Shown in pieces: positions 14,730-58,944 of a stretch of DNA of 64,000 bases. Positions within the stretch are counted from its first letter, which is position 1; the number at the start of each line of letters is the position of its first letter. Under the pieces are notes generated by a model, which worked only from the letters and a program-made list of their open reading frames with translations, did no database searches and was not told where the DNA came from. The DNA lies in the NCBI GenBank assembly GCA_037043015.1, contig CM073329.1, positions 15,392,648 to 15,456,647 of the forward strand, given 5' to 3'. Source of the stretch: Bryum argenteum (Eukaryota; Streptophyta; Bryopsida; Bryales; Bryaceae). A program made the position numbers and the translations under genes.

Positions 14730-16324
14730 TGTGATGAGAAAAGAGCTTTAATTAGGCTCAAATGTCCAATAGAATGTAAAAAGGTTTATAATTAGATAAG
14801 ACAAATAGACAAGATAGGAAATAATAGGACAAAATGGTTTTAGAAATAGAAAGGTGGATCTCAAAAGGTCTACATATGTACCTTTTCGTTTTAAGAGAGA
14901 TAAAAGGTGTGGGAAGACAAGACATTCTTGTCTACACCCTTCTCTCCGTGTATTCCACTTAGAACAATTTTAATTCATTAATATACTTTACATTTCAAGC
15001 TTTAAGATTGTTCATAGTTGTTTAAAGTGTAAGTGTAAATCTTATTACTCCGGGAGTAATAAGAAAGAAGCGAAATCTTGGAAGCGGACTCCAACAAAGA
15101 GCCATTGAAGCAAGAGGCTTCAATTGTCTTTGAAGCGGAATCCAACAAAGAAGAGCAATTGAAGCAAGAGGCTTCAATTGGCGATTTCAACACTTAATTG
15201 TGTAAAGCATTTCTAATTGTTATTGAATTATTAATATACTTGTCAACTTGATGGAATGCTTGTGTGAGTATGTAGAATTGTCTAATTGACATGCATAAAA
15301 TGTCAATGATATGAATAACTTGGTATTGAATGTGTAATGGCATTCATATGTGGAAGTTGATTTGAATAGACAATAGAACATAGTATGAAGAGAAATGGTT
15401 GATATAGAATAAGTCGATTAGGCTGGAGAGACCACTTGGATATGAAAGGTCAAGTGTAAGGAGTCTAATGGTCGCTATTATTAAAGTGTACACTTAGTGA
15501 AAGGAGAATCAAAATCCTTCACTATATAATTCTTATACTTAAGATTAGAAAAGAGTCTAATCTTAAGAGAAAGGGATGCTTGGAAGCATTGCCGTTGTAA
15601 TAGATCTTCTAAGGAGTAGAAGATAAGGTTGGCCAATACCATTAAGCATTATTGAAGTCTAGCTAACTTCAAATAGTGAAATAAGCATATGCAATAAAAG
15701 ATATTCTTAAGAGGGTCCCTAATTTTCTTAAAGATTAATAGTGTAAGGATTGATCAACCTCATATTATTGTCTTATATACATTTGACCCCTACTAATAAA
15801 GAAATACTATCTTAAGAATGCTTTGCAGATAGGACATGGAATGATGAAGATAGAAGCGATTTGAGGAACAAATAGGGAAGGACTAAAGCAGATCTTGATA
15901 AGTCCTCTAACCTTAAGACTTATTGAATTGGAAGAGTGAGATGATAGTCAAATGGACTTAAAGCTTTTAAATGCAGGTTGTCAATTTGACTTAAGACCTT
16001 CAGATTACCGAATGTCAATTTGACTATAACCCTCTGTCCATTTGACCACCAGTGATACTAAATGCACCCGTGACCATTGTCAATTTGACCAAACCAAAGC
16101 CTATAACATGATGTCCAATTGACCAATGGGTTCACTTAGATATTGAGTGGTTGTGGAAAGTGATCTAGAGTATTTTGGGTTGAGTTTAAGATCCCAACAT
16201 TACTATTTATTAACATATGACATTAGTTGCATAAAAACGTTAGACGCATGAAACCTTCCATCAAGGATCCCCCACTAGGATTTTATTTGGGATATAATTG
16301 TCTTAGATAAAAAACCCTTCTACA
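14730..16324 (+). repeat. 5' LTR of the inner element
   Basis: Nearly identical to 31287-32877. All differences I found lie in two patches (15062-15085 and about 15129-15137), both at the start of a direct repeat of about 50 bp (AAGCGGA(C/A)TCCAACAAAGA...GGCTTCAATTG). It contains seven GTCNANTNGAC dyads, six of them between 15947 and 16123, and a TATA-plus-hairpin promoter region. Confidence 0.93.
15521..15567 (+). promoter_or_regulatory. TATA box and adjoining perfect hairpin in the inner LTR
   Basis: ACTATATAAT at 15521-15530 is followed by the perfect 12-bp inverted repeat CTTAAGATTAGA (15538-15549) / TCTAATCTTAAG (15556-15567) with a 6-base loop. If transcription starts about 30 bases after TATA, the hairpin lies at or just before the RNA 5' end. 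The same structure is in the 3' LTR (about 32078-32124). Confidence 0.55.
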
Positions 16325-16327
16325 TTT

Positions 16328-16345
16328 TGGCGCCGCTGCCGGGGA
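16328..16345 (+). other. Primer-binding site of the inner element
   Basis: TGGCGCCGCTGCCGGGGA lies three bases after the LTR end. It is complementary to a tRNA 3' end including CCA. Close variants are common in plant Athila/Tat elements and are usually assigned to tRNA-Asp; the tRNA identity here is from memory of the family, not checked. Confidence 0.8.
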
Positions 16346-16645
16346 AGGTTCGGCTAACGGCGACTAAGATGTTAAGAAAAATAGTTCTTATTTTTTCTTA
16401 AACTCAAGAATTAGAATAGAAAGAGAAACCAAAGAATTTGTAGTCTATCGCGCCAAAATACTCGTGGGTTTTTAAGACACATTAAAACTTAAAAAGCCTT
16501 AGAAAGAGTGAAGATAGAACAATGGTTTTTTCTTTAGATTTTGAACTATCTTAAGAGAGACCAATTTAATTAAATAACACTTAAGATAATTCAACCAAGA
16601 ACTCTAAAAAGTTTAGAAAAAAATTCAAGGACTCATGAATGAAGC

Positions 16646-17392
16646 ATGTTTCCTTGGGAAGTAAATAGAGAAAGGGTTACTCAATTTTACACAGGCCCTT
16701 ATTTATTTTCCGCATTATTTAGAGCTTACAAAGGAGCGTATTTTGGTCAAGGATTTCAATTGACAGGAAATCTACCAAAACTATCTAAAGACTTTCAAAT
16801 TTTATTTGATAGATTACCCTTAGAAGTTAGGGGAATAATTTTGAGTAAAATTTGGGAAGAAGGAAGGGATTACAATATTTTTATAATAGAAAAAGGAGAA
16901 TTATTGCTACCCTTAAAGCTTCAATTTTTATTTGCCCAATATGGTAGAATAAAACACCTTACCCAAAGTCTTATTCCAAAGGGATGCGGTGCATGGAATG
17001 GCGACTTAGCATCACCAAACAGATCCCGACGCTACGTATTTAAATACGGCGTACCAAATCTCAAAAGTAAAGTTTTAATACCGGATTTTCTGAATAGTGA
17101 AAGAGGGAAACCATTGGCTATTCATTACGGATTATTATGTCCATAAATGGAAATTCCAAATGAATTAGTCCAACCTTTAATCCATTTGAAAAAATTATTG
17201 GTAGTATATGAAAATACCACAAAAAATTGTAAGGAATTAATACAGTTATTAGTTCAACATATAGAGGAACTTAGGGGAATTAATAGAAATAATTTCTTTG
17301 TAGAAACCTTGATTAAGGAATACAATTATCCAAAATCATTCCCAGACATTCCCGAGACATTAGAATTGGAGTCTTTCTACCTTAGGCGATAA
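16646..17392 (+). CDS. Upstream ORF before gag, split by one stop
   Basis: Two open frames, 16646-17146 (166 residues, MFPWEVNRERVTQFY...) and 17147-17392 (81 residues, MEIPNELVQP...), lie in the same reading frame. They are separated only by a TAA directly followed by ATG (TAAATG at 17144-17149). Neither matches a domain I know. The first part is mixed alpha/beta-looking with basic stretches; the second is helical. An extra ORF before gag is known in the Ogre/Tat group, so the pair may be one protein of about 248 residues with a nonsense codon, a readthrough product, or two proteins made by reinitiation. The leader between PBS and this ORF is 16346-16645. Confidence 0.6.
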
Positions 17393-17406
17393 GGTATGAC
17401 TAATAA

Positions 17407-20025
17407 ATGTCGGACAAGAGAAAGGGGTTATTGATTAAACAACAGACTCAAGAGAGAACCAATCGTGCTTTTACAAGAGAGCTTAAGAAGCGATTAGCTA
17501 ATATTGAATTATTGGACAAAAAATCTCAATTGCAATTGAGCAAAACCAAACAACGTAGTGTTAATAAGAAACCTCAAAAAGTAAATGTTTCCTTGGAGTC
17601 TATAGATAGTCCAACACCTAATTTATTAGGATTAGAAGACCCAATATCCGGTCAAGCTTCTCCAAATTGGGAAAGATCTCAAGAAGGAAACTTGACAGAA
17701 TATTTGTTTTCTAGACCAAAAGATTTAAATGAAATTTATGACATAGGACAAACGAGTTCTCCTAAAATAGAAATTTCAAGTGGACAAATATCCTTACATG
17801 ACTCTGATGATGTTGATATTGAAACCCCAATATTAACTATTCAATCGGTTTTAGATAGCTTTGGAGGAATCGAACAAGAAGGACATTCTCCTACTTTAAG
17901 TACTGATTCCTCTTTAAGGAGTGGAAACAATACTTCAAGAACGTCATCTTCAAGTTCAAGTTCTGGAAGTAGCTTAAATAATCCACTCCCATTATTTACA
18001 AACCCATTGGTAGGCCAAGTAATAATGGCTCAACAAAGAGTCTTAAATGTGGCTCCATATCCATTGTTTCATGGAATAATTGGGACAGATCTAGATAGAC
18101 ATGTAGACAGATTTTTAATAGTAGCTAGGGCAAATCAATTACCAGAACCCCTATATTTAACTACATTCCCGAGTACTCTAATTGACATAGCCGGTGATTG
18201 GTACTCCCAATTACCTGCTGCCCCAGCCACATGGGATGAATTACGCGATAATTTCCTAAGAAGATTTAGACCTCGATCGTTTGTACCTGGTCTAATTGAT
18301 AGGATAAGAAACATTAAAATGGGAATGAATGAGGGAATAGATTTTCATTATACACGTATGAACACACTCTTAAGGAGATGGCAAGGGCATCATATGCCAG
18401 ATGATTTCTTGGTAAGCACCTTTATTGGAGGTGTATACCCAGAAACGTTACGAATTTATTTAAGGGAGCAGAACCCCGGAGATGTTGCAACTGCTTATAC
18501 ATTAGCTAAAACTTGGGAGGAAGCTAGGGTCAATCATGATTATGTCCAAATTGAGGACCCATCCTTGTACCCACCAACTAGACATCACCCAAGTCATTTA
18601 TATGGAGTTGATCCACAAGGAAAGGATATATATTCTAGGGGGGGTGAGGAACTCTTAAGATTAGAGGCTCCACCTCCAATATATAATCCCAAACCCTTGG
18701 CGATAAAACCTCCAACAATGGATCCGGTAACAGATCCTATTTCAAAATTAGAAAGGAAATTAAATGATCTTACAATTAGGTTCACCCAAGCTAGAGAGAA
18801 ACGTCCTAAGTCTTCAAATCAAAGGACTAATATGTGGTGTACTAACTGTAAAGGACATGGGCATTTAGCCCATGAATGTCCCTCACCTACCGTAGGAAAT
18901 ATTAGTTTTGACATTAAATGTCAATTATGTGGTGGTAACCACTCAACTGAGAGGTGTTGGAATTTGGGAAAGGCTGTAGCCGCAATAAGTGAGATGCAAA
19001 ATAATAACAATAGAAACCCCCAAACCAATAATATGAAACCTCCTTACAATGTTACCTCAAAACGTCCGTTCACCCGTCCTAACAACGGACTCCCTTATAA
19101 ACCGGGAGACGGTGGGACAAGGTGGAATAACGCCTCTACCAGTTGGAATGGACCATCATTCAACATTAACCCTCGGAAGTCAGGGATGAACAATAGAGGT
19201 AGAACTTTGGAGTGTTACAATTGCGGGCAACTAGGACATTTTGCAAGAGATTGTCCTGCACCTAAGAAAGAAACAGGATACGATTTGTTTTGTAGACGAT
19301 GTAAGAAACCTGGCCATTTGGCTGAGGATTGTCGAGCACCGGAACCGGTTAAACAAGTGCAATTCTCAAACCCTGAAAAAATTCAAGAGGTCAATTGTGT
19401 TTTAAGGACAACCAATTTCTTTGATGATAAGAATTGTCAAGTAGTCACTAGGTCCAAAGCACGGGAGAGAGGAATTAATCTTGAATCCAATCAAGAAAGT
19501 AGTTCAGACACCGATTATAGAAAACCGGTTAAGAGACAATTATCTACCCCTAAAGAATGGACGGAATTAAAAGGCAATCAAATCATTAATGAACCCTTGG
19601 TACCACATACTACACCCAAAACCGTAGACGAACTTAACAATACACATGTACCACCTATTATAGAAACACCTCGAGATGTCAATTTAGACAAGTCTAATAT
19701 AAATGAAAATTTGCCTAAGGAAGATCCATTGAAAGTGTTAAATCAAGAGCAAATGGCTCCCTTAACACAACCATCATTCTACAAACCACCTAGGAAAATA
19801 ATTAAGAAAACTATAAGAGAAATTCTCCCTACCACAAAAAAGAGAAAACATAATAGAATCATGAATCTTATGGTAGGAATGAACCCTTATAACATCCTTA
19901 CAAATATGGATAGTATTCAACCTCAAATATCCTTAAGGCAATTATTGGCCGTTTCCCCCCAATGTAGGAGCGAACTTAGCTCCTCGTTGGTTAGAAAAAC
20001 GTCCAAAAATAGTCGAGGTACATGA
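17407..20025 (+). CDS. Gag of the inner element with four zinc knuckles
   Basis: 872 residues. An acidic, serine-rich N-terminal third precedes the retrotransposon gag domain (about residues 220-380, including [19 protein letters not shown] and [10 protein letters not shown]). Four zinc knuckles follow: [27 protein letters not shown] (shorter CX2CX3HX4C), [14 protein letters not shown] and [14 protein letters not shown]. It would form the capsid and bind RNA in the cytoplasm. The ATG is preceded immediately by an in-frame TAA. The frame departs from the protease frame at a run of six C (19955-19960), after which the last about 22 residues look out of frame. Confidence 0.9.
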
Positions 20026-20935
20026 TATTTCTATAGATCCTGGTGCACCAACCATAGACATTTTTATAGATGGGACTTTGATTGAAAATGCTCAAATTGA
20101 CGGTGGGTCTAGTGTAAATTTAATGAATCTAGATACTATGGAGGAGTTAGGCTTACAAACCATGACTACTACTCCTATAATTTTAAGAATGGCCGACCAA
20201 CAAAGGGTTAAACCCTTGGGAGTGCTTAAACAAATTCTTACAATGATAGGAGGGTTGAACTATAAAATTGACTATATAGTCTTTAAAATTAGTGAACCTA
20301 TCGCCGCCTATCCGGTACTTTTGGGTCGACCTTGGTTGTATTTAGCAAAAGCTAGGGATGATTGGGGTAAAGGCACAATAACCTTAGGCAGGGGAAAAGA
20401 CAAAATTACAATACCTATGTACCCAGCCAAATACCACGGGGAAACTCAAGAGGGAAACTCTGAGTACACTACGGGTAGCATAGAAGAAGATGAAACCACA
20501 AATCAAGTGGGTAAAGAGGAAACCATAGTTAAAACCTTAAAACCGGGAGAATATTACAACCCTTTAAACGGGGAGGATTCAGATGCAGCTATATTAGCAT
20601 GGCAGAATTCTCCGGTTTATACGGTTAAGGTTGAGGAGGAATCTGAGGAGGAACCCCCTTACTTAACCGATTCAGAGGAATTATTAAACAATATGTCTCA
20701 TAGTGTGTTAAAAAATTTAAAATCACCCAAAAGTACTTGTATTGACATGGAACTTGGAACACCCGAAAATTCAAAAACCATAAGGATTTATGAAAACTTA
20801 AGCCCAAAAGAAAGGGATCAATGGTTTAAATTTTTCAAAAAGTATCAAACTGCATTTGCATGGACATATAAGGACTTGAAAGGGATCCCTGCACATGTTT
20901 GTCAACACCGCATAATCCTAGAACGACGACACTAA
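19955..20935 (+). CDS. Protease region of the inner element
   Basis: Read from the C run in the +1 frame relative to gag; the first ATG is at 20078. [20 protein letters not shown] is the Athila-type active site (DGGS in place of DTGA). [11 protein letters not shown] is the family's C-terminal motif. Downstream comes an acidic linker and the start of RT ([14 protein letters not shown]). The frame ends at 20935, where RT coding continues through two nearby frame changes (about 20920-20962). It cleaves the polyprotein. Confidence 0.85.
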
Positions 20936-20961
20936 ACCCGTAAGGCCAAAGACAATACAGG

Positions 20962-22734
20962 ATGAACCCCAAATATTCATTACTAGTTAAGGAAGAAATT
21001 GACAAATTATTAGAATGTGGGTTTATTTATTCTGTACCATATAGCGAATGGGTTTCTCCCATCGTCGTTGTACCAAAAAAGAATGGGAAATTAAGGATAT
21101 GTCAGGATTTTAGAAAGTTAAACAGTGTAACTCGCAAAGATTATTTTCCCTTACTTTTTACAGATGCAATATTAGATGCAGTAGCTGGGCATGAATGTTA
21201 CTCTTTTTTAGATGGATTTTCGGGGTATAATCAGGTTCAAATTGCCCCAGAAGATAGACCTTTAACAACTTTTACAACTGATTGGGGCACATTTGCCTAT
21301 AACGTCATGCCATTTGGTTTGTGCAATGCCCCTGCTACATTCCAACGGGTTATGACTATAGCATTTCAAAAATATATGCGAAAATTTATTGAAATATTTC
21401 TAGATGATTTTTGTGTTTTTAGCACAAAGGAAGAACATGGGGAGTGTTTAAGAAAATGTTTTGAGCAATGCCAAGAATATGGCATTTCTATAAACGCGGC
21501 TAAATCCGAATTTATAGTACCTTATGGACGTCTTGTAGGACATATAGTGTCTAAAGACGGTATTGCTGTAGACCCAGAGAAGGTTAAGGCAATATTAGCA
21601 ATTGAAATTCCAAAAAATATTACCGATGTTAAGTCATTTTTGGGAGGTACGGGCTACTATCGCCGCCATATTTATTTCTTTGCTCAAATAGCACACCCGT
21701 TGACTCATTTAACCAAACAAACAGAAATGCCGGGAGTCTGGACGGAGGAGTGCACTAAAGCCTTTAATAAACTTAAGAAAAGGCTTACTACAGCCCCCGT
21801 ACTAATTCCCCCTGATTGGAATAAAATATTTGAAGTCTATGTGGATGCCTCAAATGTGGGCATTGGTAGTGTGCTAAGTCAAAAAGATGATAAGGGTCGT
21901 GATAGACCAATTTATTTTGCTAGCAGGCAATTGAGTGCGGCTGAAAGGAATTATTCTGTGAGTGAACGAGAGGGCTTAGGGATGATTTACTCAGTTCAAA
22001 AGTATAGGCATTATTTATTGGGATATAAATTTAATTTTTATGTTGATCATGATGCTCTTAAGTATATGATTAATAAACCTCAACTTAGTGGGAGAATAGC
22101 ACGTTGGGTATTGCTATTACAAGAATTTGATTTTACAATTAATGTTAGACCGGGAAGACAACATGGTAATGCGGATTTTTTGTCTAGAATAAGTAAAGAA
22201 GTAAACCCCGAGCCTATAGATGATAGCTTTCCCGATGCGCACATTTTTAACGTTGACATTATTCCATTGGAATATGCCGATGTTATTCATTATTTGACTA
22301 CTAACACTTTTCCTTTAGACTATAACGAAAAGCAGAAGCAAAATTTAGCTTATAAAGCTCAACCTTATACAATAATTGCTAAGGTTCTGTATAAGCAAGG
22401 CAAAGACGGAATCTTAAGAAGATGTGTGAATCCTAGTGAAGTACCATTAGTCTTAAAAGCGTGTCATGATGACGCTTGTGGGGGCCATTTCGCAGGAATG
22501 GTAACCGCACAAAAAGTCTTAAGGGCCGGGTATTGGTGGCCCACCTTGTTCTCAGATGCCGCAATTCATGCTCGAAAATGTGATGCGTGTCAAAGAGTAG
22601 GCAAACCAACACCAACCAAAGCCATGCCCTTAAACCCAATTCTAGCCCAAGTACCTTTTGAGAAGTGGGGTATAGACTTTGTAGGCCCAATTAAACCCCC
22701 TAGCCGTTATGGCCAAAACGATATATTCTTGTAG
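20962..22734 (+). CDS. Reverse transcriptase, RNase H and integrase zinc domain of the inner element
   Basis: 590 residues starting at MNPKYSLLVKEEIDKLL. The RT motifs WVSPIVVVPKKNGKLRICQD, YSFLDGFSGYNQ, MPFGLCNAPATFQR and the catalytic FLDDFCVFS are intact. RNase H follows with VYVDASNVGIGSVLSQ, a conserved glutamate in SEREGLGMIY, and YVDHDALKYM. The integrase zinc finger has H...H...C-x2-C (HFAGMV...KCDACQR), then the first DDE aspartate in WGIDFVGPI. The frame is lost at 22710-22720 in an A-rich stretch, where integrase continues in another frame. All active residues seen are kept. Confidence 0.92.
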   Translation: MNPKYSLLVKEEIDKLLECGFIYSVPYSEWVSPIVVVPKKNGKLRICQDFRKLNSVTRKDYFPLLFTDAILDAVAGHECYSFLDGFSGYNQVQIAPEDRPLTTFTTDWGTFAYNVMPFGLCNAPATFQRVMTIAFQKYMRKFIEIFLDDFCVFSTKEEHGECLRKCFEQCQEYGISINAAKSEFIVPYGRLVGHIVSKDGIAVDPEKVKAILAIEIPKNITDVKSFLGGTGYYRRHIYFFAQIAHPLTHLTKQTEMPGVWTEECTKAFNKLKKRLTTAPVLIPPDWNKIFEVYVDASNVGIGSVLSQKDDKGRDRPIYFASRQLSAAERNYSVSEREGLGMIYSVQKYRHYLLGYKFNFYVDHDALKYMINKPQLSGRIARWVLLLQEFDFTINVRPGRQHGNADFLSRISKEVNPEPIDDSFPDAHIFNVDIIPLEYADVIHYLTTNTFPLDYNEKQKQNLAYKAQPYTIIAKVLYKQGKDGILRRCVNPSEVPLVLKACHDDACGGHFAGMVTAQKVLRAGYWWPTLFSDAAIHARKCDACQRVGKPTPTKAMPLNPILAQVPFEKWGIDFVGPIKPPSRYGQNDIFL

Positions 22735-23519
22735 CTACGGAATATGTCACAAAATGGGCAGAGGCCATCCCCACTAAAAAGGATGATGCAGAAACCGTAG
22801 CCAAATTCTTGTATGAAAATATAATAACTCGCTTTGGTTGTCCAAACGAATTGGTGAGTGATAGAGGTACACATTTCATGAATAAAACTATAGAAGAGTT
22901 GACTACAAAATATCTTATAAAACATAGACCAACTACACCTTATCACCCCCAGACTAATGGACAAACCGAGAAAACTAACGGCATTTTGTGTAAGATTATC
23001 ACAAAAACTGTACAAGGGTCAACTACGGACTGGGATAGTCGTGTATTAGACGCACTTTGGGCTTATAGGACTGCCTATAAAGTTACTCTTAAGGATACAC
23101 CTTTCAATTTGGTCTATGGTCAAGAAGCCATACTCCCTATTGAATTAGAATTGTCGTCCTTAAGAATTGCCATAGAAGAAAGACTAGGAGACCAGGATTC
23201 TTTAAAGCAAAGATATATAATGCTAGAAAAATTGGATGAATCAAGGGCTCAAGCATATTTAAATATGCTAGCCATACAAAAACATAGAAAATTGTACTAT
23301 GATAGTAAACTTGGGACAAAGGAATTAAAAGAAAATGATTTGGTTTTACTTTATGATAGTAGATTCCAAAAATTTCCGGGAAAATTTAAAATGAGATGGT
23401 TTGGCCCATATAGAGTCTTAAAAAGCTATCCAAATGGTTCAGTTGAAATTCAGGACTTTGCAGGAAACGTTCATCAAACGCGTTATAATGGTCATCGTCT
23501 AAAACTATACATAACTTGA
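22707..23519 (+). CDS. Integrase core and C-terminus of the inner element
   Basis: It continues the previous protein after a one-base-type shift (ILVATEYVTKWAEAIPT). The second catalytic aspartate is in ELVSDRGTHF and the glutamate in NGQTEKTNG. The C-terminal GPYRVLKSYPNGSVEIQDF region is the GPY/F module. There is no chromodomain, consistent with a non-chromovirus lineage. The stop at 23517-23519 is followed within 15 bases by the internal PPT. Confidence 0.9.
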   Translation, partial: LWPKRYILVATEYVTKWAEAIPTKKDDAETVAKFLYENIITRFGCPNELVSDRGTHFMNKTIEELTTKYLIKHRPTTPYHPQTNGQTEKTNGILCKIITKTVQGSTTDWDSRVLDALWAYRTAYKVTLKDTPFNLVYGQEAILPIELELSSLRIAIEERLGDQDSLKQRYIMLEKLDESRAQAYLNMLAIQKHRKLYYDSKLGTKELKENDLVLLYDSRFQKFPGKFKMRWFGPYRVLKSYPNGSVEIQDFAGNVHQTRYNGHRLKLYIT

Positions 23520-23532
23520 GGACAAGTTATAT

Positions 23533-23549
23533 TTTAAAGAGGGGGGCTA
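23533..23549 (+). other. Internal polypurine tract of the inner element
   Basis: TTTAAAGAGGGGGGCTA right after the integrase stop differs at one base from the LTR-proximal tract TTTAAAGAAGGGGGCTA (31270-31286). Such tracts prime plus-strand DNA synthesis and normally touch the 3' LTR; this one is 7.7 kb away. Confidence 0.75.
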
Positions 23550-25512
23550 ATGAATAACAAATTTAAAATTATGAAAAATCTAAGTTACTTAACCCCAAAC
23601 ATTAAAATATCTTAAATTAAACTCTTTAAATTTTAGTCAAATAGACGTATAAGTAAAGTAATCAAATGATGCATTAATTATAGCAAAGTCAATCGGATAG
23701 CAAGAAAAGTTAGAGCAAGTGGAATCATTATGTTAGAACCTTCTTTATAAAAGTAATTATAAAGTGTTTCTGAAGTGATTTGAAGTAAATAGAAGTCAAG
23801 CCATGATGAACTTTATAGTACAAAGAAAGTTTTAACCCCAAGGAAAATAGATGTAATTATGGGATTAACTAGAAGAAGTAGCATAATCTCTTATAAGGAC
23901 AAATTTAGAATTTAGACTTATAAAGAGAGTGGGCAATAAATAAGTAATAAACTAAGGAAACGTAAAAAACAAGAAAGATCTTCCAATTTTAGACACCAAA
24001 TAGTCCTAACTAAGAAAAGGATTAGGGATACCCACTACTTTTAAGTCTTAATTATCTAAATTTTGTGAATATTTCAAACATTCTAAAATTTTAGAATATT
24101 AAACCTTGACTAACAAAGTAAGTTAGAAAATAAGAACTCTAGATTTTGTCTACAAAGACTTAATCATTAAACAAAAGGATATTGTCAAATAGACTTAACA
24201 CAAATGATTAAAAATAATAATAAAAATACAAATGGTCAAATCCACAAAGTAATCATGATAAGTATACTGGTGGCCGGTCAAATTGACTAACTGGGGTTAG
24301 TGGGGTCGAATAGACTGGCAGTTACGGCGTCATGCGCCGCCACCAAATGATCATGATTTCATGACCTTGATAAAACCACCTCCTTCTTGAGTCTCCCGCC
24401 CTCACTGCGCATTCAGTTTGAGTCTTCCGCTCCTTCCACTCCTTCGTGTTTTTGCTCCATTGTGTGTTTCGTGTTGTTGTTGTGTTGACTCGCGCGGCCT
24501 GCTAAGTGTCAAGTGGACACGCGCTGCCGCTGAGTGGGAGTACTCGCAAAACGAACAGGAGGTCGAGTCGACTGGAGCAGGAAGTCAAGTCGACCAGGGC
24601 GAGGAGAACAAGGTTTGCTCGCTGCATGTGAGTGGCGTGACATAGAAGGTAAGTTTTCCAGAAAGAAAGCTGATGTCTTGATGCGAGAAGCAAAGTTTTG
24701 GAAGTCGAGTAGACTGTGAATGAAATTGTAAAGAACGAAGAGCGAAGGAATTAGGTCAAATAAACAGTGTGTCATACGGTGTAAAAATTGTGTTAGGAGT
24801 GAACGTCAAATGGACTGTGTTGTAATAGGAAGGTCGAAGGTGTAAGTCAGAAGAAACTGTCAAATGGACCTAATTAGAGGATAATTCATGTGAGATCACG
24901 AATTGGTGTCAAATGGACAGAAAGGGTCTACATGCTGTGTTGATTATTGTAAAATAAGAGGTCAAATGGACAAAAGAAATCAAAGAACCGAGGCTGTTGT
25001 ATGCTGATGAGTGTCAAATTGACAAATAAAATGCATGAACGTGGAATTGACAAGGAGGAGTCCATTTGACCTAAGTAATTGAGTAATATACATGCCTAAC
25101 TAACTTTTGTGCAATGGATTGGCAGTTGTTTTTCTTTCAAATTTTCAAGTAACACTTCTGAATTTTCACAATGTCGAGAGTAGCTGTAAAACAGGAAAAT
25201 AATACCACAGGTAAGTAAGGAAAGAATACACCAATCTCAAAGTCTAATTGACAATGAAAGTTTGAATGAATGAGCTGTTGTAAAAGACCAATTGACCATG
25301 TGTAGGATGTCGAACGACATGATCCAATTAGGCTGAAGTCCAGTTGACAAGCAATGTGTGTATTGTATGAGTCTAATTCACATACTGTTGAATGAGGAAT
25401 GTTCGAAAACGAATCTAATAGACAATCGAAATGGATAAAGATGCTAAAAATCGTGTCAAATTGACAGAAGATATAAAATCGAATTAAGGAGGTCAAATTG
25501 ACACGGATAAGG
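23550..25512 (+). other. Non-coding first part of the accessory cassette
   Basis: No convincing ORF. The AT-rich start changes near 24300 into GC-richer sequence. From 24184 on it carries GTCNANTNGAC dyads about every 80 bases (24184, 24277, 24305, 24508, 24562, 24584, 24704, 24805, 24859, 24908, 24961, 25013, 25060, 25242, 25338, 25455, 25492). Confidence 0.7.
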
Positions 25513-26973
25513 ATGAGCACTTGTCAAGTAGACAAACCACCTAACAAAATGTTTGCTCCTGTGTCTAATCGACTACAAACAGGAGAAGCGGGAGGACAGG
25601 GCAGCATGGCACCAGTATTAAAAATTGAGAAGGCACCGACCTTCTCCTTTTCACCAGAAGGCTGGGTCTACATCGAATCGAACAAGGAGAATCTGATCGA
25701 TGCAGGGCTATGGAACTTTCTTCATGAGACACTTCCAGAGATGGATCCGCAGCTGGTGAGCGAATTCATCAAAAATTCGTACTATGGAGCTTCAGAAGAA
25801 GTCACGGTGCGAGGGAAAAATGTTCGGTTCACACCAGAGGTAGTTGCTGAGAAGCTCGGGCTGCAAGGGACAGGACTCACATTGGGAGGAGTCAACAAGT
25901 TGACTAACAAGAAGGTAGCTGAAATTTTCGGGAAGAATCCGAAAGGTGGTGCGAATTATGTGATCTCAAAAGCAAAAGGTTTCTGGAAGGAGTGGCTCCA
26001 CTACATGAACCAGAAGATTCTCATGGCGCTGAACGGAGTAGAGGTGATTGAAGAGCATGGTTTGTCAGCGGCCATCATGGCGTGGGAAGACAAGGAGCTG
26101 AACTGGGGTCGCATCATCTGGAACCAGACAAGGGTCGAGTTGAATCGGAAGCGGACGAGAAATCCTTTGATCCTGTTCAGTGGAGTATATATCTCGGAGG
26201 TGTGCCAACTATGCATGAGTCCGATTCCAACTGTGAGGCAGATCGACACTGGAAGGAGGAGCGGTCGAATAGACCCAGCAACACCAGTACCAGCGAGCAC
26301 CACCGCAACGACAAGCGCTCCATCTGGGTCAATTAGACGAAGTCAAGTGGCCGCACCAACAACTGTTACACCTCTGAGTCAGACCGAGTCTATTAGACGA
26401 GGAAAGCGGGTGCGAGATGCAGAAGAGCAGGAAGAGGACGTCTCAGAGGAAGTAATGAGAGAACCGCAAACTGCTCGAGGATTTGCTAATGCATTAGCCT
26501 TATCCCTGTCTGCCGCACCAGTTCAACTTCAGATTCCGGACAATTTGACCAAGCAACAACTTGTATGCGAGCTGAAGCAGGCCAGAGCCAAAGAAGGAAG
26601 GGTGATGCAAGAGCTCCAAGAAGTATTGGGAAGAGAGATCCAGATGAAGCTACAAATCAAGAAATTGGAGGGCGATGTCAATGTATGGAAAGGAAATGCA
26701 GCCAGGAGAAAAGCGGAACTTGACCAGGCTCTGGTGGAGAAGGTCGAATTGACATCATTGAATGATCAACTCATCCAAGCAGCCACAGAAACGGCCGAGA
26801 AGCAAGGTCAAGTCGACAATGGAACAAGAAGGGAGCAGTCCACCATGACTGATGAGTCAGGGCCGTCAAGTGGACGATTGTTGACCTTTTACGAGTCGGT
26901 GAAGGAGAAGGAGGATGATAACGTCATCTTGGCCCCAGGATTTAGCTTGCTCGAAACAGAATGTATCGTTTAA
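25513..26973 (+). CDS. Accessory ORF X, coiled-coil protein of unknown function
   Basis: 486 residues from the first ATG (25513); MAPVLKIEKAPTFSF at about 25606 is an alternative start. The N-terminal half includes a segment (TVRGKNVRFTPEVVAEKLGL) resembling the 'putative plant transposon protein' domain found in plant Athila/Tat-type elements. A low-complexity Thr/Ser/Pro/Ala middle follows, then from about residue 335 a long charged coiled coil (LTKQQLVCELKQARAKEGRV onward). No signal peptide or membrane helix is seen, so it is not an env protein. Its base composition is clearly GC-richer than pol. At least seven dyad sites are embedded, in different codon phases. Confidence 0.7.
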   Translation: MSTCQVDKPPNKMFAPVSNRLQTGEAGGQGSMAPVLKIEKAPTFSFSPEGWVYIESNKENLIDAGLWNFLHETLPEMDPQLVSEFIKNSYYGASEEVTVRGKNVRFTPEVVAEKLGLQGTGLTLGGVNKLTNKKVAEIFGKNPKGGANYVISKAKGFWKEWLHYMNQKILMALNGVEVIEEHGLSAAIMAWEDKELNWGRIIWNQTRVELNRKRTRNPLILFSGVYISEVCQLCMSPIPTVRQIDTGRRSGRIDPATPVPASTTATTSAPSGSIRRSQVAAPTTVTPLSQTESIRRGKRVRDAEEQEEDVSEEVMREPQTARGFANALALSLSAAPVQLQIPDNLTKQQLVCELKQARAKEGRVMQELQEVLGREIQMKLQIKKLEGDVNVWKGNAARRKAELDQALVEKVELTSLNDQLIQAATETAEKQGQVDNGTRREQSTMTDESGPSSGRLLTFYESVKEKEDDNVILAPGFSLLETECIV

Positions 26974-27512
26974 AAAGCACTCAATTATGTAGTCGAAGTC
27001 GACTCAAACCACCCGCCACATGATATTTCCACCATGGCGGATAGAGCAACACAAAGCGAACGAGGAGGTGGAGACATGGAAGGCGAAGTGGACAAGCTAA
27101 GGGAGGAGAATAACCACCTAAGTCTTTGAGGTGACTATTCTAATGAGTCGATTGGACCACTCGTCACGGCAATGTGGGAGCAAGAAGCTAGAGCACCACC
27201 GAGTTTTCTCTGTTCCGAGCTTACGAGCTCCAACGTTCAATCCTCTTGTCTATGTACAATCTGCAGATCCGAAGTCAAATAGACGGAGAGGCTTTCCTCC
27301 GAATACGGAATAGGGCAAGTCGATTTTCGAACCAACGAGAATTTGTTGTGTGAGATCTTGCCGGCAAGACAAGACTTGAGCCGATTTGAGCCGAGGCGAT
27401 TCTTTATACCAATTGGGCACTTGGGAGCAAGAGTCTTTGGCATATTACTTAGCACTCGAGGAGCAAAGAACAAGTTAAGCGTCGACTCGACAAGACACCT
27501 GAGGAGGTCCGA

Positions 27513-28652
27513 TTGGTGCGAGTTGGAGATAGCACAGATGAGCTGCAAAGGCTCACACAGATCCATGGCATGGGAGGTTTTGAGGGATGGCAGGCCATAC
27601 TCTGTATGATGAAGGGTCAACTCAACGATCGAGTAGAGATCCAGAGGAAAATAGCTCTGGTGCTGGAACGAGAAGCGGTAGCACTGCGTGGAGAATTCTC
27701 GGCTGGGACATATGTGTATGCTATGGCTACCATTTATGGTGAGATTCAGGCGTCGCTGAAGGGACTCGGAGAGGGTCGATTGGACATAGCACCCCTGCCG
27801 AGCCAGGTCAAATTGACAACACCGCCAGCAACATTCAGGCCACCGAAGTGGGTGAGTCTACGATCCATGGTGACAGGCTCTGAGTTGAAGAAGCGATACC
27901 TTGGAAATTACGAGAGTCTATTTGACAATCCATCGGAGCAACCAGTGCCATCCTGGAAGGCCATTGAATGGTTGCTGGAGGATTATGGGCTCTCGAGAGT
28001 AGAAAAGCGCGCCTGGGACTTGGTATACAAAGAAATGGGGCGATTTGGAGCCCTGGTCGATTGGACTATAGATCCTCCACCAGCAGTTTCTACCAACGCA
28101 CACTTCTGCGTGATGAACGCGAGGAGGAACAAATGGCCAAGGGAGGCCACCATCGACTCCATCGAATACAACTGGCCAGTGATACCAGGTCAATTTGACA
28201 AGCCAGAGGCGTGTGCGGATGCGTACAAGAGGTTTTTCGAGCAGCACAAGAGCCACACCGACCCTGTGTGCTTTCGAGCAGCTGTGTTTTGTAATTTTCT
28301 AAGTATGCTGTGCAAGGATTATGGTGTGCAGATCGATGTGAACAGGTTCGAAGAGCTTAAGCCGGAGTTTCAGCTCTCCCTGAAGTTGCAGTATCGATGC
28401 ACCAGGTGGAACCGAATGATAGAAGTGATGGCGAGTACGCATTTCCTTCACGGTGCTCATGGCTGCTTCATCAATGAGTTCAATGGAACGAGGAAAATTG
28501 CAATTGACAAATGGCTATCGGCGCAACGCAAGAACGACACGAAGTTGTTGCTGGACGATGATGTGCGCAAGGCAGTCGACCGTCTGGAGGCAGAGGAGTA
28601 CAAGAGGGAGCTGCTTAACAAGGATAGGTACCGAAATTGGCTTGCACGATGA
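27513..28652 (+). CDS. Accessory ORF Y, unknown function
   Basis: The frame is open from 27513; the first ATG is at 27570, giving 360 residues (MGGFEGWQAIL...). It has a tryptophan-rich central part (WLLEDYGLSRVEKRAWDLVY, SIEYNWPVIPGQF) and a charged, helical C-terminus (VDRLEAEEYKREL). No domain is recognised; no membrane helix or signal peptide. Between X and Y (26974-27512) lie a 31-codon ORF at 27034 (MADRATQSERGG...KLREENNHL) and fragments in several frames, so the true protein may begin upstream and be broken. Dyads fall at 27775, 27807, 27916, 28056 and 28189. Confidence 0.65.
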   Translation: MVRVGDSTDELQRLTQIHGMGGFEGWQAILCMMKGQLNDRVEIQRKIALVLEREAVALRGEFSAGTYVYAMATIYGEIQASLKGLGEGRLDIAPLPSQVKLTTPPATFRPPKWVSLRSMVTGSELKKRYLGNYESLFDNPSEQPVPSWKAIEWLLEDYGLSRVEKRAWDLVYKEMGRFGALVDWTIDPPPAVSTNAHFCVMNARRNKWPREATIDSIEYNWPVIPGQFDKPEACADAYKRFFEQHKSHTDPVCFRAAVFCNFLSMLCKDYGVQIDVNRFEELKPEFQLSLKLQYRCTRWNRMIEVMASTHFLHGAHGCFINEFNGTRKIAIDKWLSAQRKNDTKLLLDDDVRKAVDRLEAEEYKRELLNKDRYRNWLAR

Positions 28653-29880
28653 AGTATGGGTCAATTTGATGTCAGTAATGTTCCGGTTGTACATAGGCTG
28701 CCGTAGGCATTTAATGTGAGGTCGAGTAGACAGTTATTGAACATTCTCCCCCAGCACATTGCCTTGTTATATTCACTTTCACTTTTCAGTATACTCTCTT
28801 TCTCAGCATATAAGTCGTGTCGAGTAGACACCGTGTCAAACACTCAAATGCATAAGTACCTTTTACGAAAAACACTTGTTTCTCTTTTCAGTTTTAATGC
28901 AATTCCATCCATGGGAAAAGCTTTCTGAAATCTTTGTGTTACACATTTTTTCTTGCATTGGAGTGTAGGTTGAGGTCAAATAGACAGGATCAGCACATTC
29001 TCTCTCAATGCATTGCCTTGTTCATATTCGTCTTGTGTTTACTTTGCAATGAATAATGGACTTTGAGTTGAGTTAGAGAATGGAAAATGAAATTTCATCA
29101 AGGTCAATTAGACTAAGTAACATAGGTTCAGAAAGAGTCTGTCTTAGGAATCTGAAGAGTAAAGAACTCGGAGTCAATTTGACAGAGAGTATAAACAACA
29201 GAAAGTCGACTAGACAGGGAATGTCAAGTATGAATGAATACCACAAGGAGTAATAAACTCTGAGCCAATAAGATGGAGAGTTTAAGTTTTACTGAAGTCC
29301 ATTAGACTGTGTTAAGTGGTTTAGGAGATAGAAAGTAAGCTGAGAATGTGTCGAGTAGACAGGAAGCTTGAGTAAGAAGCAAGTATGAAAATAGACGGGT
29401 CAAGTAGACTGTAAACCAGAGAGTGTGAGTACAATTGAGTCGAAATGACTAAGAGAAACAGGAGGAAAGATTGCTCAGTTCCGGAGGCATAATAAAGAGT
29501 TGTAAATCAGTCAAGTAGACAGAGAAAAATGGTTCCAACAACTTGTACAAAATAATTCAAGGATTCAGTTACGTCTTAAATGTTCAAATACTTAGTTGAA
29601 TTCTGAAGAGAGAAAGGGAGAATTCTCAAGAAAAGTCAAGTAAACTTGGAAACTCCAATTGAAAAAGTTTCACTCAGCAGATCTAAAACCTTCAAAGAAA
29701 GAGTTTTTAATAGGTCAATTAGACTGACCAAAGGCTTGATAAGGAAGTCATGTAACATTTTAAAGTCAGATGGACTCAACCAATTCTTAAGCAAGACGGG
29801 AAAGTTTAAGGCTACGTCTAATAGAATTTCTTAATATTCCTAAGTTGAGTTTCTTATGTCCAATCAAAAAGTCAAAAGTA
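28653..29880 (+). other. Non-coding last part of the dyad-bearing cassette
   Basis: No ORF is supported. Thirteen dyads lie between 28721 and 29775, about one per 80 bases. It becomes AT-rich and purine-rich toward the right. Confidence 0.7.
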
Positions 29881-29886
29881 ATAAAG

Positions 29887-30075
29887 AAAACATGATAAGT
29901 AAGAAACATGATAAAAGAACATCACTAAGGTAATAAGGAAAACATGATAAATAAGAAACATGATAAAAGAACATCACTAAGGTAATAAGGAAAACATGAT
30001 AAATAAGAAACATGATAAAAGAACATCACTAAGGTAATAAGGAAAACATGATAAATAAGAAGAAATTAATCATAA
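29887..30075. repeat. 52-bp tandem repeat, about 3.5 copies
   Basis: Units begin ACATGATAA at 29890, 29942, 29994 and 30046. Each also contains a second AACATGATAA inside, so the unit itself is a partial duplication. Confidence 0.85.
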
Positions 30076-30430
30076 AGAAACATGATAATTGAACATAATT
30101 AAAATTAAGTAAAAAAAAAAAAAAAAAATCAAAAAAAAAAGAAGACAAGATGCAAAGTTGATAGGAGCAAATTGCCGAGTGAATGAAACAAATTAAAGAA
30201 AGAATCCGTTGAGTATTCAAAGTTTTATTCTCAAAAACAAAACTATTAGCATGCCGAGAGGGAAAAATAAGAGAGAACATGATAATGGAGTGAGTAGAAA
30301 TTTGTCAACAATAATGTTTTGAGAGAAGAACAATTAGCATCCTTGTCCCACAATCTAAAATATGAGTATATGTCATATAGGTTTTGAAAGAAAATAAGTA
30401 AGAATGTAAGAACATGAGTGAAAATAAAGG

Positions 30431-30560
30431 CAATAAGAGAAAATGAGCGTTCTAAGAGAAAATGAGCGTTCTAAGAGAAAATGAGCATTGTGAGAGAAAA
30501 TGCGCGTTTTAAGAAGAAAAGAGCACTTTGAGAGAAAATGAGAGACTCGAAAGAAAAAAG
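30431..30560. repeat. Short AGAGAAAATGAGCG tandem repeats
   Basis: A unit of about 20 bases (GCGTTCTAAGAGAAAATGA) repeats with decay toward the right. Confidence 0.65.
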
Positions 30561-30945
30561 AGAGACTTGAGGAGATGAGAGAGTCTTAAAAAGATAAATA
30601 TAGAAAAGTTTATAATGAGCAAAGTAAGTCATAAATAGTAGTCTCAAGTGAGGAATATGGTCAAAACATGATAATGAAAGAAAGGAAAGAAAAGTTCTGA
30701 GTAAAGTGAGAAAAATCATGAAAAAATTCCCGAGAGAATAATGAGTTGTTGAGGGAACATCATTGAGAGAAAAGTCAAGTGGATAAGAAAGTTTCAAGTA
30801 GTAAGTATCAATGATGAGGGATGATTAACAAACATTGAGTCTAATAAGTTGTAAAGTTGACAAAAATACCTCTTAAGAGGAAATGAACCAGAAATTTCAA
30901 GGACAATACCTAGACGTTACATGGAGATTTCGAGGTACGAGAAAG

Positions 30946-31100
30946 ATCAAGAAACCAGAATCCGAAAAGGGAATCTGGAAAGACGTTTAAAAGATTATGA
31001 TAAAAAAGAATCAAGAAACCAGAATCCGAAAAGGGAATCTGGAAAGACGTTTAAAAGATTATGATCAAAAAGAATCAAGAAGCCAGAAATCGAAAAGAAG
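30946..31100. repeat. 64-bp tandem repeat, about 2.4 copies
   Basis: Units begin ATCAAGAA at 30946, 31010 and 31074. The first two are nearly identical and the third is truncated and diverged. Confidence 0.85.
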
Positions 31101-31269
31101 TGTACGCGAAAATCAAAACTAAAGTTGACAACTTGTTACATCAACTAAGAAATCAAGTGAATGACATACGGACGTACAAGGACAATTCTAGCGGACAAAT
31201 AGCCTTCCTTAAGAGATGAAAAGTGCAAGAAGTACCAGGAGGCAAGCAAGGCTTGTCAGGTGCCAAGCC

Positions 31270-31286
31270 TTTAAAGAAGGGGGCTA
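31270..31286 (+). other. LTR-proximal polypurine tract of the inner element
   Basis: TTTAAAGAAGGGGGCTA directly abuts the 3' LTR (TGTGATGAG from 31287), the normal place for the plus-strand primer. Confidence 0.85.
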
Positions 31287-32877
31287 TGTGATGAGAAAAG
31301 AGCTTTAATTAGGCTCAAATGTCCAATAGAATGTAAAAAGGTTTATAATTAGATAAGACAAATAGACAAGATAGGAAATAATAGGACAAAATGGTTTTAG
31401 AAATAGAAAGGTGGATCTCAAAAGGTCTACATATGTACCTTTTCGTTTTAAGAGAGATAAAAGGTGTGGGAAGACAAGACATTCTTGTCTACACCCTTCT
31501 CTCCGTGTATTCCACTTAGAACAATTTTAATTCATTAATATACTTTACATTTCAAGCTTTAAGATTGTTCATAGTTGTTTAAAGTGTAAGTGTAAATCTT
31601 ATTACTCCGGGAGTAATAAGAAGGCGAGTGCCGGAAGCGGACTCCAACAAAGAGCCATTGAAGCAAGAGGCTTCAATTGTGCTGGAAGCGGAATCCAACA
31701 AAGAAGAGCAATTGAAGCAAGAGGCTTCAATTGGCGATTTCAACACTTAATTGTGTAAAGCATTTCTAATTGTTATTGAATTATTAATATACTTGTCAAC
31801 TTGATGGAATGCTTGTGTGAGTATGTAGAATTGTCTAATTGACATGCATAAAATGTCAATGATATGAATAACTTGGTATTGAATGTGTAATGGCATTCAT
31901 ATGTGGAAGTTGATTTGAATAGACAATAGAACATAGTATGAAGAGAAATGGTTGATATAGAATAAGTCGATTAGGCTGGAGAGACCACTTGGATATGAAA
32001 GGTCAAGTGTAAGGAGTCTAATGGTCGCTATTATTAAAGTGTACACTTAGTGAAAGGAGAATCAAAATCCTTCACTATATAATTCTTATACTTAAGATTA
32101 GAAAAGAGTCTAATCTTAAGAGAAAGGGATGCTTGGAAGCATTGCCGTTGTAATAGATCTTCTAAGGAGTAGAAGATAAGGTTGGCCAATACCATTAAGC
32201 ATTATTGAAGTCTAGCTAACTTCAAATAGTGAAATAAGCATATGCAATAAAAGATATTCTTAAGAGGGTCCCTAATTTTCTTAAAGATTAATAGTGTAAG
32301 GATTGATCAACCTCATATTATTGTCTTATATACATTTGACCCCTACTAATAAAGAAATACTATCTTAAGAATGCTTTGCAGATAGGACATGGAATGATGA
32401 AGATAGAAGCGATTTGAGGAACAAATAGGGAAGGACTAAAGCAGATCTTGATAAGTCCTCTAACCTTAAGACTTATTGAATTGGAAGAGTGAGATGATAG
32501 TCAAATGGACTTAAAGCTTTTAAATGCAGGTTGTCAATTTGACTTAAGACCTTCAGATTACCGAATGTCAATTTGACTATAACCCTCTGTCCATTTGACC
32601 ACCAGTGATACTAAATGCACCCGTGACCATTGTCAATTTGACCAAACCAAAGCCTATAACATGATGTCCAATTGACCAATGGGTTCACTTAGATATTGAG
32701 TGGTTGTGGAAAGTGATCTAGAGTATTTTGGGTTGAGTTTAAGATCCCAACATTACTATTTATTAACATATGACATTAGTTGCATAAAAACGTTAGACGC
32801 ATGAAACCTTCCATCAAGGATCCCCCACTAGGATTTTATTTGGGATATAATTGTCTTAGATAAAAAACCCTTCTACA
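31287..32877 (+). repeat. 3' LTR of the inner element
   Basis: It ends TTCTACA and is followed by the target duplication GATGT (32878-32882). Compared with the 5' LTR it carries AAGGCGAGTGCCGG and GTGCTGG in the two patches where the 5' copy has other sequence. The rest appeared identical on reading. Confidence 0.93.
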
Positions 32878-32882
32878 GATGT

Positions 32883-33472
32883 GAAGGAGTTTGTTCTCTC
32901 TTGTGATATTTGTTCAAGGTCGAAGAACCCTCGGCATCGCCCCTATGGACTTTTGCAGCCATTGCCTATCCCGCATCGACCATGGTCTTGATTTCCATGG
33001 ATTTCATTACGGACTGCCGCTTTCAAACTCGTTTGACAAAGATCTTTGTTGTGGTAGATCGGCCGACGAAGATGGCGCATTTTGTTCCTTGCAAGAAGAC
33101 ATCGTCGAGCGAAGATACAGAAGACTCTTTCTTGATAATGTATATCGTTATCACGGCTTGCCAGATGATATTGTGTCGGATCGCAGAACCCAGTTCGTCT
33201 CCAAGTTCTGGAAATCTCTATTTGAGATATTGAAGGTGGATATCAAGCTTTCTTGGCATTTCATCCTCAAACCGACCGGACAGACGGAACGGGTGAATCA
33301 AGTATTGGAGCAGTATCTACGTTGCACCATCAACTATCAGCAAGACGATTGGATCGAGTATCTACCGCTTGCCGAGTTCGCCTACAACAACACTATTCAT
33401 GCGTCGACCCAACAAACACCATTCTTTGCCAACTACGGATACCACCCGAAGCTTGATTTATGGAATTGATGG
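32883..33472 (+). pseudogene. Integrase C-terminal half of the outer element
   Basis: It resumes with [14 protein letters not shown] (the zinc-finger cysteine pair) after the inner insertion. ISMDFITDC gives the first catalytic aspartate, IVSDRRTQFVSKFW the second (G replaced by R), and TGQTERVNQVLEQYLR the glutamate. AYNNTIHASTQQTPFFANYG follows. Three frames are needed. Confidence 0.85.
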
Positions 33473-34585: not shown

Positions 34586-35115
34586 TGTCACGGACATACA
34601 CAAGAAGTTTCTAGAAGGTTCTTCTAAAATATTCTCTGAAGATTCCCTAAAAGATTCCCCGAAGATTCCTTAAAAGATTCCCCGAAGATTCCTTAAAAGA
34701 TTCCCCGAAGATTCCTTGAAGATTCCCTGTGTCACGGCCACGTACTAGGTAGACAACTTAGGAAGGTTCTAGAAGGTTCTAGAAGCTTCCGGAAACTTCT
34801 GGAAGTTCCTGGAAGTCTCTAGAAGTTTTTGGAAGGTCCTTGAAGTTTCCGGAAGGCCCTGGAAGCTTCTGGAAGGTCTTGGAAGTTCTTGGAAGGTCCT
34901 AGAAGGTCCTAGGTCGAGAAAGGTTCTGGAGAACCTTCTTCTTAGCTAGTATATATAGGAGTCGAGGCTGAGGGCAACCTCAGTCTCGACAACGCATCTC
35001 TTGGAGCTCTAGCTCATCTCTCTTGTTGTTCATGTACTCTTCTTGTTAATTCAAGTTCCTGTCAGTTCTTGTTAGTTTCCACATATTCTTATCATCTGTT
35101 TCCGTGTCCCTGACA
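34586..35115 (+). repeat. 3' LTR of the outer element
   Basis: 530 bp, ending CTGACA and followed by GTTGA. It has two more copies of the roughly 23-bp GATTCC(T/C)(T/C)-type repeat than the 5' LTR (34630-34725). The TATA box is at 34950-34957. Confidence 0.9.
34762..34904 (+). promoter_or_regulatory. Heat-shock-element array in the 3' LTR
   Basis: GAA at 34762, 34772 and so on to 34902, again fifteen copies at exactly 10 bp, as in the 5' LTR. The phase is unbroken despite substitutions between the LTRs (for example CTGGAA to CTAGAA at about 34820). Confidence 0.75.

Positions 35116-57343: not shown

Positions 57344-58944
<1,601 letters not shown>

Follow-up and report, generated by a model that had tools for sequence, protein, structure and literature searches.

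We report that an 18.1-kb long terminal repeat (LTR) retrotransposon of Bryum argenteum carries a dispersed array of 45 copies of a short dyad, GTCNANTNGAC, whose fixed positions are kept by selection, and that related elements in the same genome carry other dyads, each specific to a subfamily, which may be read as versions of a shared half-site. The element, an Athila-like Ty3/gypsy retrotransposon, occupies positions 14730-32877 of what we call the window, meaning the whole 64,000-nucleotide stretch analyzed (G000:C9:15392648-15456647, on contig CM073329.1), taken from a genome of 258.8 Mb in 25 contigs. On balance, we lean toward reading the array as binding sites for a dimeric protein, probably the product of the element's own 3' open reading frame (ORF), here represented by ORF X and ORF Y, that would control silencing or transcription.

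An exact scan of positions 23636-29775 returned 47 GTC-N5-GAC words, 45 of them in the strict form GTCNANTNGAC, the same counts as those given in an initial annotation made by hand. First-order Markov shuffles of the region (n = 300) gave means of 1.29 and 0.08 and maxima of 5 and 2 for the two forms, respectively, in agreement with that annotation's rough expectation of about one GTC-N5-GAC word by chance. Only the 5-base spacer was so enriched, other GTC..GAC spacers (0-4 and 6-15 bases) occurring 0-7 times each, and beside the 45 exact sites there were 15 with one mismatch (2.0 in shuffles). Genome-wide, strict sites numbered 3572 per strand versus 1848 for a backwards control pattern, and triple clusters of strict sites numbered 119 versus 2 in the control. 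The density was ~0.014/kb across the genome versus 7.3/kb in the array, so the motif is not equally dense elsewhere. We concluded that the array did not arise by chance. The inner A and T of the dyad, described at first as fixed while the other spacer positions varied freely, are indeed present in 45 of the 47 words, but the "free" positions are biased, position 4 being A in 26, G in 14, C in 3, and T in 4 and the center base being C in just 2 of 47.

The main array (23636-29724) consists of dispersed sites with unique flanks: 18 strict sites lie before ORF X (25498-26973, forward strand), 8 within it, 3 between X and Y, 5 within ORF Y (27513-28652, forward strand), and 11 after Y, the two ORFs together holding 13 of the 45. 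The interval originally assigned to the motif, 23636-29775, covers this main array but not the 7 further strict sites in each LTR (15280, 15947, 15980, 16014, 16036, 16079, and 16113 in the 5' LTR and the same seven, at 31833, 32500, 32533, 32567, 32589, 32632, and 32666, in the 3' LTR), 6 of the 7 being clustered at LTR positions 1218-1384, 3' of TATA-like words at LTR positions 794 and 1045. The motif was also said to be missing from the inner gag-pol; our scan of 16325-23519 found no strict site there but did find a single looser GTC-N5-GAC word, at 22463. No strict site was found in the A-rich stretch at 29776-31286.

Across the 45 sites, the best match of any site's 40 flanking bases to those of another site was 15-23 of 40, and because the flanks are alike in at most 23 of 40 positions, we excluded recent tandem duplication of a longer repeat as the source of the sites. 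For comparison between relatives, we sampled the 10 kb downstream of the reverse transcriptase (RT) from 20 family members (loci L0xx), out of 74 RT matches including the window's own, and set retention of aligned sites against 2000 draws of neighboring words with the same mask. Between the window and L021, 24 of 27 aligned sites were retained (control mean, 3.34; maximum, 9), and identity was 98.6% at the eight fixed positions versus 75.3% at the three free positions and 74.4% in the flanks. The window also retained sites with L020 (5/7; control, 0.37), L022 (14/20; control, 6.1; maximum, 13), L023 (4/4; control, 0.18), and L024 (4/6; control, 0.12), as did L023 with L024 (11/14; control, 2.4) and L020 with L021 (6/6; control, 0.4). 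The closest copies, L019, L035, and L037, retained 45, 40, and 44 of the 45 sites, close to the 38.6, 37.6, and 35.6 that overall identity predicts. Comparison between relatives thus showed that selection maintains the fixed dyad positions, and the unique flanks, the retention, and the difference between fixed and free positions strongly support the initial claim of recognition rather than copied sequence. Furthermore, the array evidently turns over while the word persists, because L020, L023, and L024 hold 34, 16, and 19 strict sites despite having just 1.3-2.7 of 8.2 kb of alignable post-pol DNA. The RT proteins of L020, L021, L023, and L024 are 89-97% identical to that of the window, and large post-pol parts are 68-77% alike or unalignable, a pattern that would point either to mosaic elements or to very rapid change in the 3' region; an earlier study, in its available part, describes how Athila elements recombine with one another (PMC2410132).

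With two further 2.5-kb pieces (L039 and L040), the window and its 20 relatives make 23 regions, 21 of them long. The GTCNANTNGAC array was found in 9 of the 21 long regions (15-48 sites), the other 12 holding 0-2 copies. A motif-blind scan of these 12 revealed GACTATAGTC dispersed in seven (L028, L030-L034, and L038), with 6-19 exact copies, or 14-26 when up to one mismatch was allowed. Two others of the 21 carried CAANTTG (37 copies in L026 and 44 in L027), and widening this word to CRANTYG raised the counts to 73 and 78; elsewhere, the CRANTYG sum was 26 in the window, where the array motif itself overlaps CRANTYG, and 3-11 in ten other regions without the window's array. The piece L039, a deeper relative with an RT 64% identical, held CGANTTG 20 times versus 1.7 expected and 34 CRANTYG words in all. 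The motif-blind scan found no dyad in the long regions L025 and L029, which form one subfamily, or in L036, a truncated copy whose match to the window stops ~1.1 kb past the RT, and none was found in the piece L040, which is 94-95% identical to L025/L029. A dyad array was thus present in 19 of 23 regions; of the four that lacked one, three belong to a single subfamily and the fourth is truncated. The word AAGANCAA was counted 7 times in L025 and 10 in L029, a frequency near the noise level, with most copies pointing the same way.

A half-site scan described the dyads of the three long-region classes as GTCNA-1-TNGAC, GNCTA-0-TAGNC, and, for part of the CRANTYG sites, GNCNA-1-TNGNC, the last covering 22 and 24 distinct-flank sites in the CRANTYG class. 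In our reading, the classes may be variants of one half-site, (G)NCNA, with a spacer of 1 or 0. Where it could be aligned, the GACTATAGTC class also exceeded the control in site retention, with 13/16 versus 6.4 (maximum, 13) between L028 and L030, 4/5 versus 0.5 between L028 and L034, and 2/3 versus 0.4 between L028 and L031; three other GACTATAGTC pairs had no aligned site. All of these dyads keep CNA/TNG around their cytosines, with CAA and CTA frequent, and their binding could be methylation sensitive. Plant CHH pathways methylate cytosines in contexts of this type.

Dyad class is associated with the phylogeny of the elements. On an integrase tree of 19 of the 21 long regions (L022 and L035 had no usable piece), the class labels required the minimum number of changes, 4 for 5 labels, and L036, labeled apart as truncated, fell within the GTCNANTNGAC class. 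They also required the minimum, 3 changes for 4 labels versus a shuffled mean of 8.1, on a tree of Y with 18 rows (L022, L029, L036, L039, and L040 left out), the details of which are made unsure by long or partial rows. A profile of Y relatives, which extends further N-terminally than ORF Y, matched 18 of the 19 dyad-bearing regions, the exception being L022, in which the post-pol DNA that can be aligned is cut short; the 2.5-kb pieces of L039 and L040 include only the N-terminal part of the profile, with Y proper just past their ends. Among the dyad-less long regions, the profile matched L025 over part of Y, and L029 and L036 gave no match. Y sequence accompanies the array in most of the regions compared but also occurs in the dyad-less subfamily.

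A search independent of locus choice used GACTATAGTC pairs, defined as two sites 30-60 bases apart. Genome-wide there were 30 such pairs versus 1 in the control, and 26 of the 30 (13 of 16 distinct places) had one of the 111 Y matches within 6 kb, compared with 0.4% of random positions. Single GACTATAGTC places lay within 6 kb of a Y match in 32 cases among the first 50 listed, all on contig C1. Triples of GTCNANTNGAC lay within 12 kb of a Y match at 29 of the first 50 places listed (random, 0.9%), or 5 of 15 distinct places, and many of the remaining places look like LTR clusters without internal parts. CGANTTG triples lay within 6 kb of a Y match at 11 of the first 100 places listed (6 of 56 distinct); at those six, the strand of the cluster was the same as that of the neighboring Y match in four, opposite in one, and both in one, a mixture that fits recognition of double-stranded DNA.

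ORF X and ORF Y are the N-terminal part and the conserved C-terminal domain of the same 3' extra ORF. The frame is broken between them in the window copy, and X and Y lie in one open frame in L019, L023, and L027 (1059, 1008, and 964 amino acids [aa], stop to stop). ORF X gave a weak match to Transposase_32 (PF20167; 21.8 bits, cut-off 45) and, in our reading of a subthreshold match, has a coiled-coil-like stretch that would suit dimerization. A large protein collection contains 36 relatives of ORF Y, which has many near-invariant W, C, H, and Y residues, among them C199, C201, C234, H245, H248, and C253, that could hold zinc. Its dN/dS of 0.13-0.18, in the 3 of 15 pairs unsaturated at synonymous sites, indicates purifying selection, and AlphaFold2 models of Y are mostly helical and fairly confident (mean predicted local distance difference test score, 80.8 for the whole and 87.0 for residues 120-379).

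From these patterns we infer a dimeric binder, its identity, and the effect of its binding. The free center and outer positions, the deep conservation, the presence of sites in coding and noncoding DNA alike, and the lack of any sign of RNA pairing argue for a dimeric protein that binds double-stranded DNA. Because related subfamilies appear to change half-site or spacer within one scheme, this protein would belong to one diverging, element-carried family, for which Y is the best candidate. We envisage that a 2-fold symmetric protein binds the dyads along the LTR and post-pol DNA, where the sites are kept by selection, and that it is the product of the 3' sense ORF, with DNA contacts made by the Y domain or by the place where it joins the coiled-coil-like X. 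Many dimers loaded onto the DNA of their own family would then keep chromatin open or activate transcription, in the manner of VANC, the element-encoded binder of Arabidopsis VANDAL transposons. Divergence of the protein between subfamilies would be accompanied by changes in half-site and spacer and by replacement of the array, such that each subfamily would address itself. The initial suggestion of VANC-like recognition by an element-encoded or host dimer gains from the finding that sister subfamilies carry different dyads on one half-site scheme, which makes VANC-like co-diversification more likely; the assignment of the binder to the product of ORF X and ORF Y derives from association, to which the dyad-less subfamily is an exception. 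More tentatively, and as a proposal that we place a little short of probable, this Ty3/gypsy radiation may use a self-recognition code in which each 3' ORF protein dimer binds, and protects or activates, only its own (G)NCNA-dyad subfamily, with half-site and spacer following the protein. With the same reserve, such a code might be an independently arisen LTR retrotransposon counterpart of VANC, the repeated motifs of Sireviruses being a further parallel.

Several observations weigh against the 3' ORF product as the binder. The L025/L029/L040 subfamily has X sequence, and L025 has part of Y, yet no dyad was found in it; just beyond L040 there are Y matches spanning residues 25-244 and 246-376, and on the integrase tree L025 and L029 are sister to the CRANTYG class. 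On the Y tree, members of the GTCNANTNGAC class do not form a single clade (2 changes; they do so in 30% of bootstrap trees), the CRANTYG class and L025 branching inside it. Although L020 has the same motif as the window, its X is only 28% identical to the window's X, and for this reason X alone does not determine specificity in a simple manner. Y itself gave no convincing Pfam match and no NCBIfam match, belongs to no recognizable DNA-binding family, and yielded no informative match when its models were used in a fold search. Outside the GTCNANTNGAC and GACTATAGTC classes, the CGANTTG words of L039 lack symmetry (20 forward, 6 reverse), and CGANTTG triples genome-wide were not enriched over the control (51/82 versus 596/572), many of the listed matches being tandem repeats. 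Retention was weaker in the CRANTYG class (21/29 versus a control of 11.6 and 23/33 versus 13.2), with 7 of 14 CAANTTG sites retained versus 3.5 expected. Finally, motif class follows phylogeny, such that another element-encoded protein would fit equally.

One alternative is that the palindromes are sites for dimeric factors of the host, stress-related ones for instance, and that elements with different arrays recruit different factors. The site cluster within the LTR would suit this explanation, which is also the published interpretation of the nearest precedent, the Sirevirus repeated motifs, likened by their authors to host stress-factor sites in the sections of that work available (PMC2829016). 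However, the sites here extend from just after pol through coding and noncoding DNA, beyond the LTR promoter, and several related host factors would be needed, since the dyads of sister subfamilies can be fitted to a single half-site scheme and their classes group together on the Y tree. The form GTCAANTTGAC contains what we take to be two facing W-box-like TTGAC words, which we counted in favor of host factors. A W-box array needs the TTGAC core on each half-site, and two W-boxes, as expected for WRKY proteins, require the outer A and T; we found the A in 26 of 47 sites and the T in only 13 of 47. Host factors are, on this evidence, an unlikely explanation.

We give slightly less credence still to an element-encoded binder that acts on the linear cDNA or pre-integration complex (in compaction, nuclear import, or protection), or to integrase or gag as the binder instead of the 3' ORF product. 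Motif class does cluster on the integrase tree as it does on the Y tree, and coding sites are at least as dense as upstream noncoding sites in 3 of 7 loci; however, the gag-pol DNA of the window has no strict site, which would be odd for a cDNA-wide role, and Y sequence lies in or adjoining 18 of the 19 dyad-bearing regions. A role at the RNA level, whether as hairpins or packaging signals in genomic RNA or as palindromes templating small interfering RNAs, has a precedent in the maize Sirevirus palindrome clusters, which are stated to attract small RNAs in the available part of a later source (Bousios et al. 2016, via PMC10760457), but we consider it very improbable here: the two outer free positions could pair in 10 of 45 sites versus 10.4 expected, which is chance level, and by reasoning the CRANTYG arms, one base apart, would leave a one-base loop, which makes no hairpin, and a weak three-base stem. 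The chance that the array is an artifact, either copies of one longer repeat or a product of protein-coding constraint, is negligible, for although the GACTATAGTC coding sites of four elements lie mostly in one frame (9/9, 7/9, 8/9, and 8/9), those of the GTCNANTNGAC class use all three frames, upstream noncoding sites reach 0.75-1.8 times the coding density (higher in 4 of 7 loci and somewhat lower in 3), and the unique flanks and the noncoding sites refute this explanation.

The limits of the host element were drawn from its 99.3%-identical LTRs, TG...CA ends, GATGT target-site duplication, polypurine tract, and TGGCGCC-type primer binding site; all features that follow are on the forward strand. 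The 5' LTR (TGTGATG...TTCTACA) spans 14730-16324 and the 3' LTR spans 31287-32877, and the flanks, read directly, hold GATGT at 14725-14729 and 32878-32882. The primer binding site, TGGCGCCGCTGCCGGGGA, which we take to be of the tRNA-Asp type, was read at 16328-16345, and the polypurine tract, AAAGAAGGGGGC, was read directly at 31273-31284. Pfam searches identified a gag ORF of 872 aa with Retrotrans_gag and CCHC knuckles and without the strict motif (17407-20025), a protease-region ORF with a weak Asp_protease_2 match below the cut-off (20078-20935), an ORF carrying RT, RNaseH (RH), and the integrase zinc domain (20962-22734), and an ORF for the integrase (IN) core (22809-23519; rve at 25.2 bits, under the cut-off of 32.6). 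Downstream of the array and before the 3' LTR there is an A-rich tract without the motif (29878-31097), with tandem repeats at 29878-30061, 30434-30557, and 30942-31097. The domain order from Pfam, RT-RH before IN, is that of Ty3/gypsy; in Ty1/copia pol, IN precedes RT. A scan of seven ORFs gave no match to a second RNaseH model besides the RT-linked RNaseH, and the Pfam scan of the element's ORFs gave none to Athila ORF-1 (PF03078). In having a 3' ORF in sense orientation and in giving no match to a second RNaseH model, the element resembles the Athila clade.

Direct repeats at 10793-11231 and 34661-35095, 95.7% identical, flank the element at a distance, and pol fragments were read by eye at 13579-14402 and 32891-33469; with these fragments, the repeats look like the LTRs of an older gypsy element that was the insertion target of the 18-kb element. 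Elsewhere in the window, a dense short-period tandem repeat, ~98% alike in the registers listed, occupies 58421-58944.

A search of the literature available listed no description of the present dyad-array system that we recognized. The nearest published parallel that we found is nevertheless close enough that calling the array a new system, as was first done, is too strong: palindromic, family-specific repeated motifs have been published for Ty1/copia Sireviruses (Bousios et al. 2010, PMC2829016). According to the sections of that paper available, these are dyads with a varying spacer, in 8-32 copies with divergent flanks, located in the LTRs and near a sense 3' ORF ("ENV"), and linker copies occur only in elements with the 3' extra ORF; a CGG-CCG core is found in 12 of 13, with CpG islands, 77 of 79 linker copies lie upstream of the ORF, and LTR copies lie upstream of the promoter (PMC2829016). 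The present dyads are likewise palindromic, numerous, and located in the LTR and near a sense 3' ORF. Unlike in Sireviruses, the order of domains is that of gypsy, the cores are GTCNANTNGAC, GACTATAGTC, and CRANTYG, the copies are more numerous, the array lies on both sides of the ORF as well as inside it, the sites clustered in the LTR are 3' of the TATA-like words, and conservation was measured site by site. The present case lies in the other LTR superfamily and has another core, and our comparisons show selection at the level of the site and several codes along a single element tree.

VANDALs are Mutator-like DNA transposons. Their families in Arabidopsis carry family-specific words (YAGTATTAY and AGTTGTCC) that differ between sister families and are bound by an element-encoded protein, and the available sections describe these words as not perfect dyads, mainly noncoding, and spread by tandem repeats (PMC5735166; PMC10398659). 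The case of VANC makes clear that an element can own a code of this kind (PMC5735166). The present element likewise is enriched in a short family-specific word and has a candidate encoded binder, but it has LTRs, gag, RT, RH, and IN, and its words are dyads with unique flanks, 13 of the 45 inside ORF X or Y. An array that covers the LTR and post-pol DNA and spares gag-pol resembles the protection by VANC of stretches of its own element more than it does a single promoter.

With Athila, the element shares the RT-RH-IN order, the want of a second RNaseH model match, and a long post-pol region with a sense extra ORF; this ORF has no PF03078 match, though most Athila elements lack ORF-1 too, since it is present in 16% of them (Neumann et al. 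2019, PMC6317226). An additional RNaseH marks the Tat clade in that classification, the available text of which does not mention a dyad array for Athila (PMC6317226). Retand elements have a TRP28 antisense ORF with a Transposase_28 domain, and tandem repeats, as described in the available part of PMC11963269. They share with the present element a long region between pol and the 3' LTR with an extra ORF, which in Retand is predicted to bind DNA, but here the extra ORF is sense, its domain is other than Transposase_28, and the sites are dispersed. In En/Spm, a CACTA DNA transposon, the element-encoded protein TNPA has many dispersed subterminal 12-bp sites, which lie near the ends and are required for excision. 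Many dispersed sites are common to both, with the encoded binder here a candidate only, but the present element is an LTR element and its array extends across the LTR and post-pol DNA.

Few element-encoded, sequence-specific systems for anti-silencing or activation are known, VANC being one of them. Here, a single genome contains a retrotransposon tree that bears at least three related dyad codes, together with a candidate protein family, so that a switch in specificity would be testable by binding assays. The finding may also bear on the palindromic motifs of Sireviruses, the role of which was left open in 2010 in the sections of that paper available (PMC2829016). It would, in addition, offer a possible reason why plant LTR elements retain 3' extra ORFs, to which the available parts of the literature assign an unknown or unproven function.

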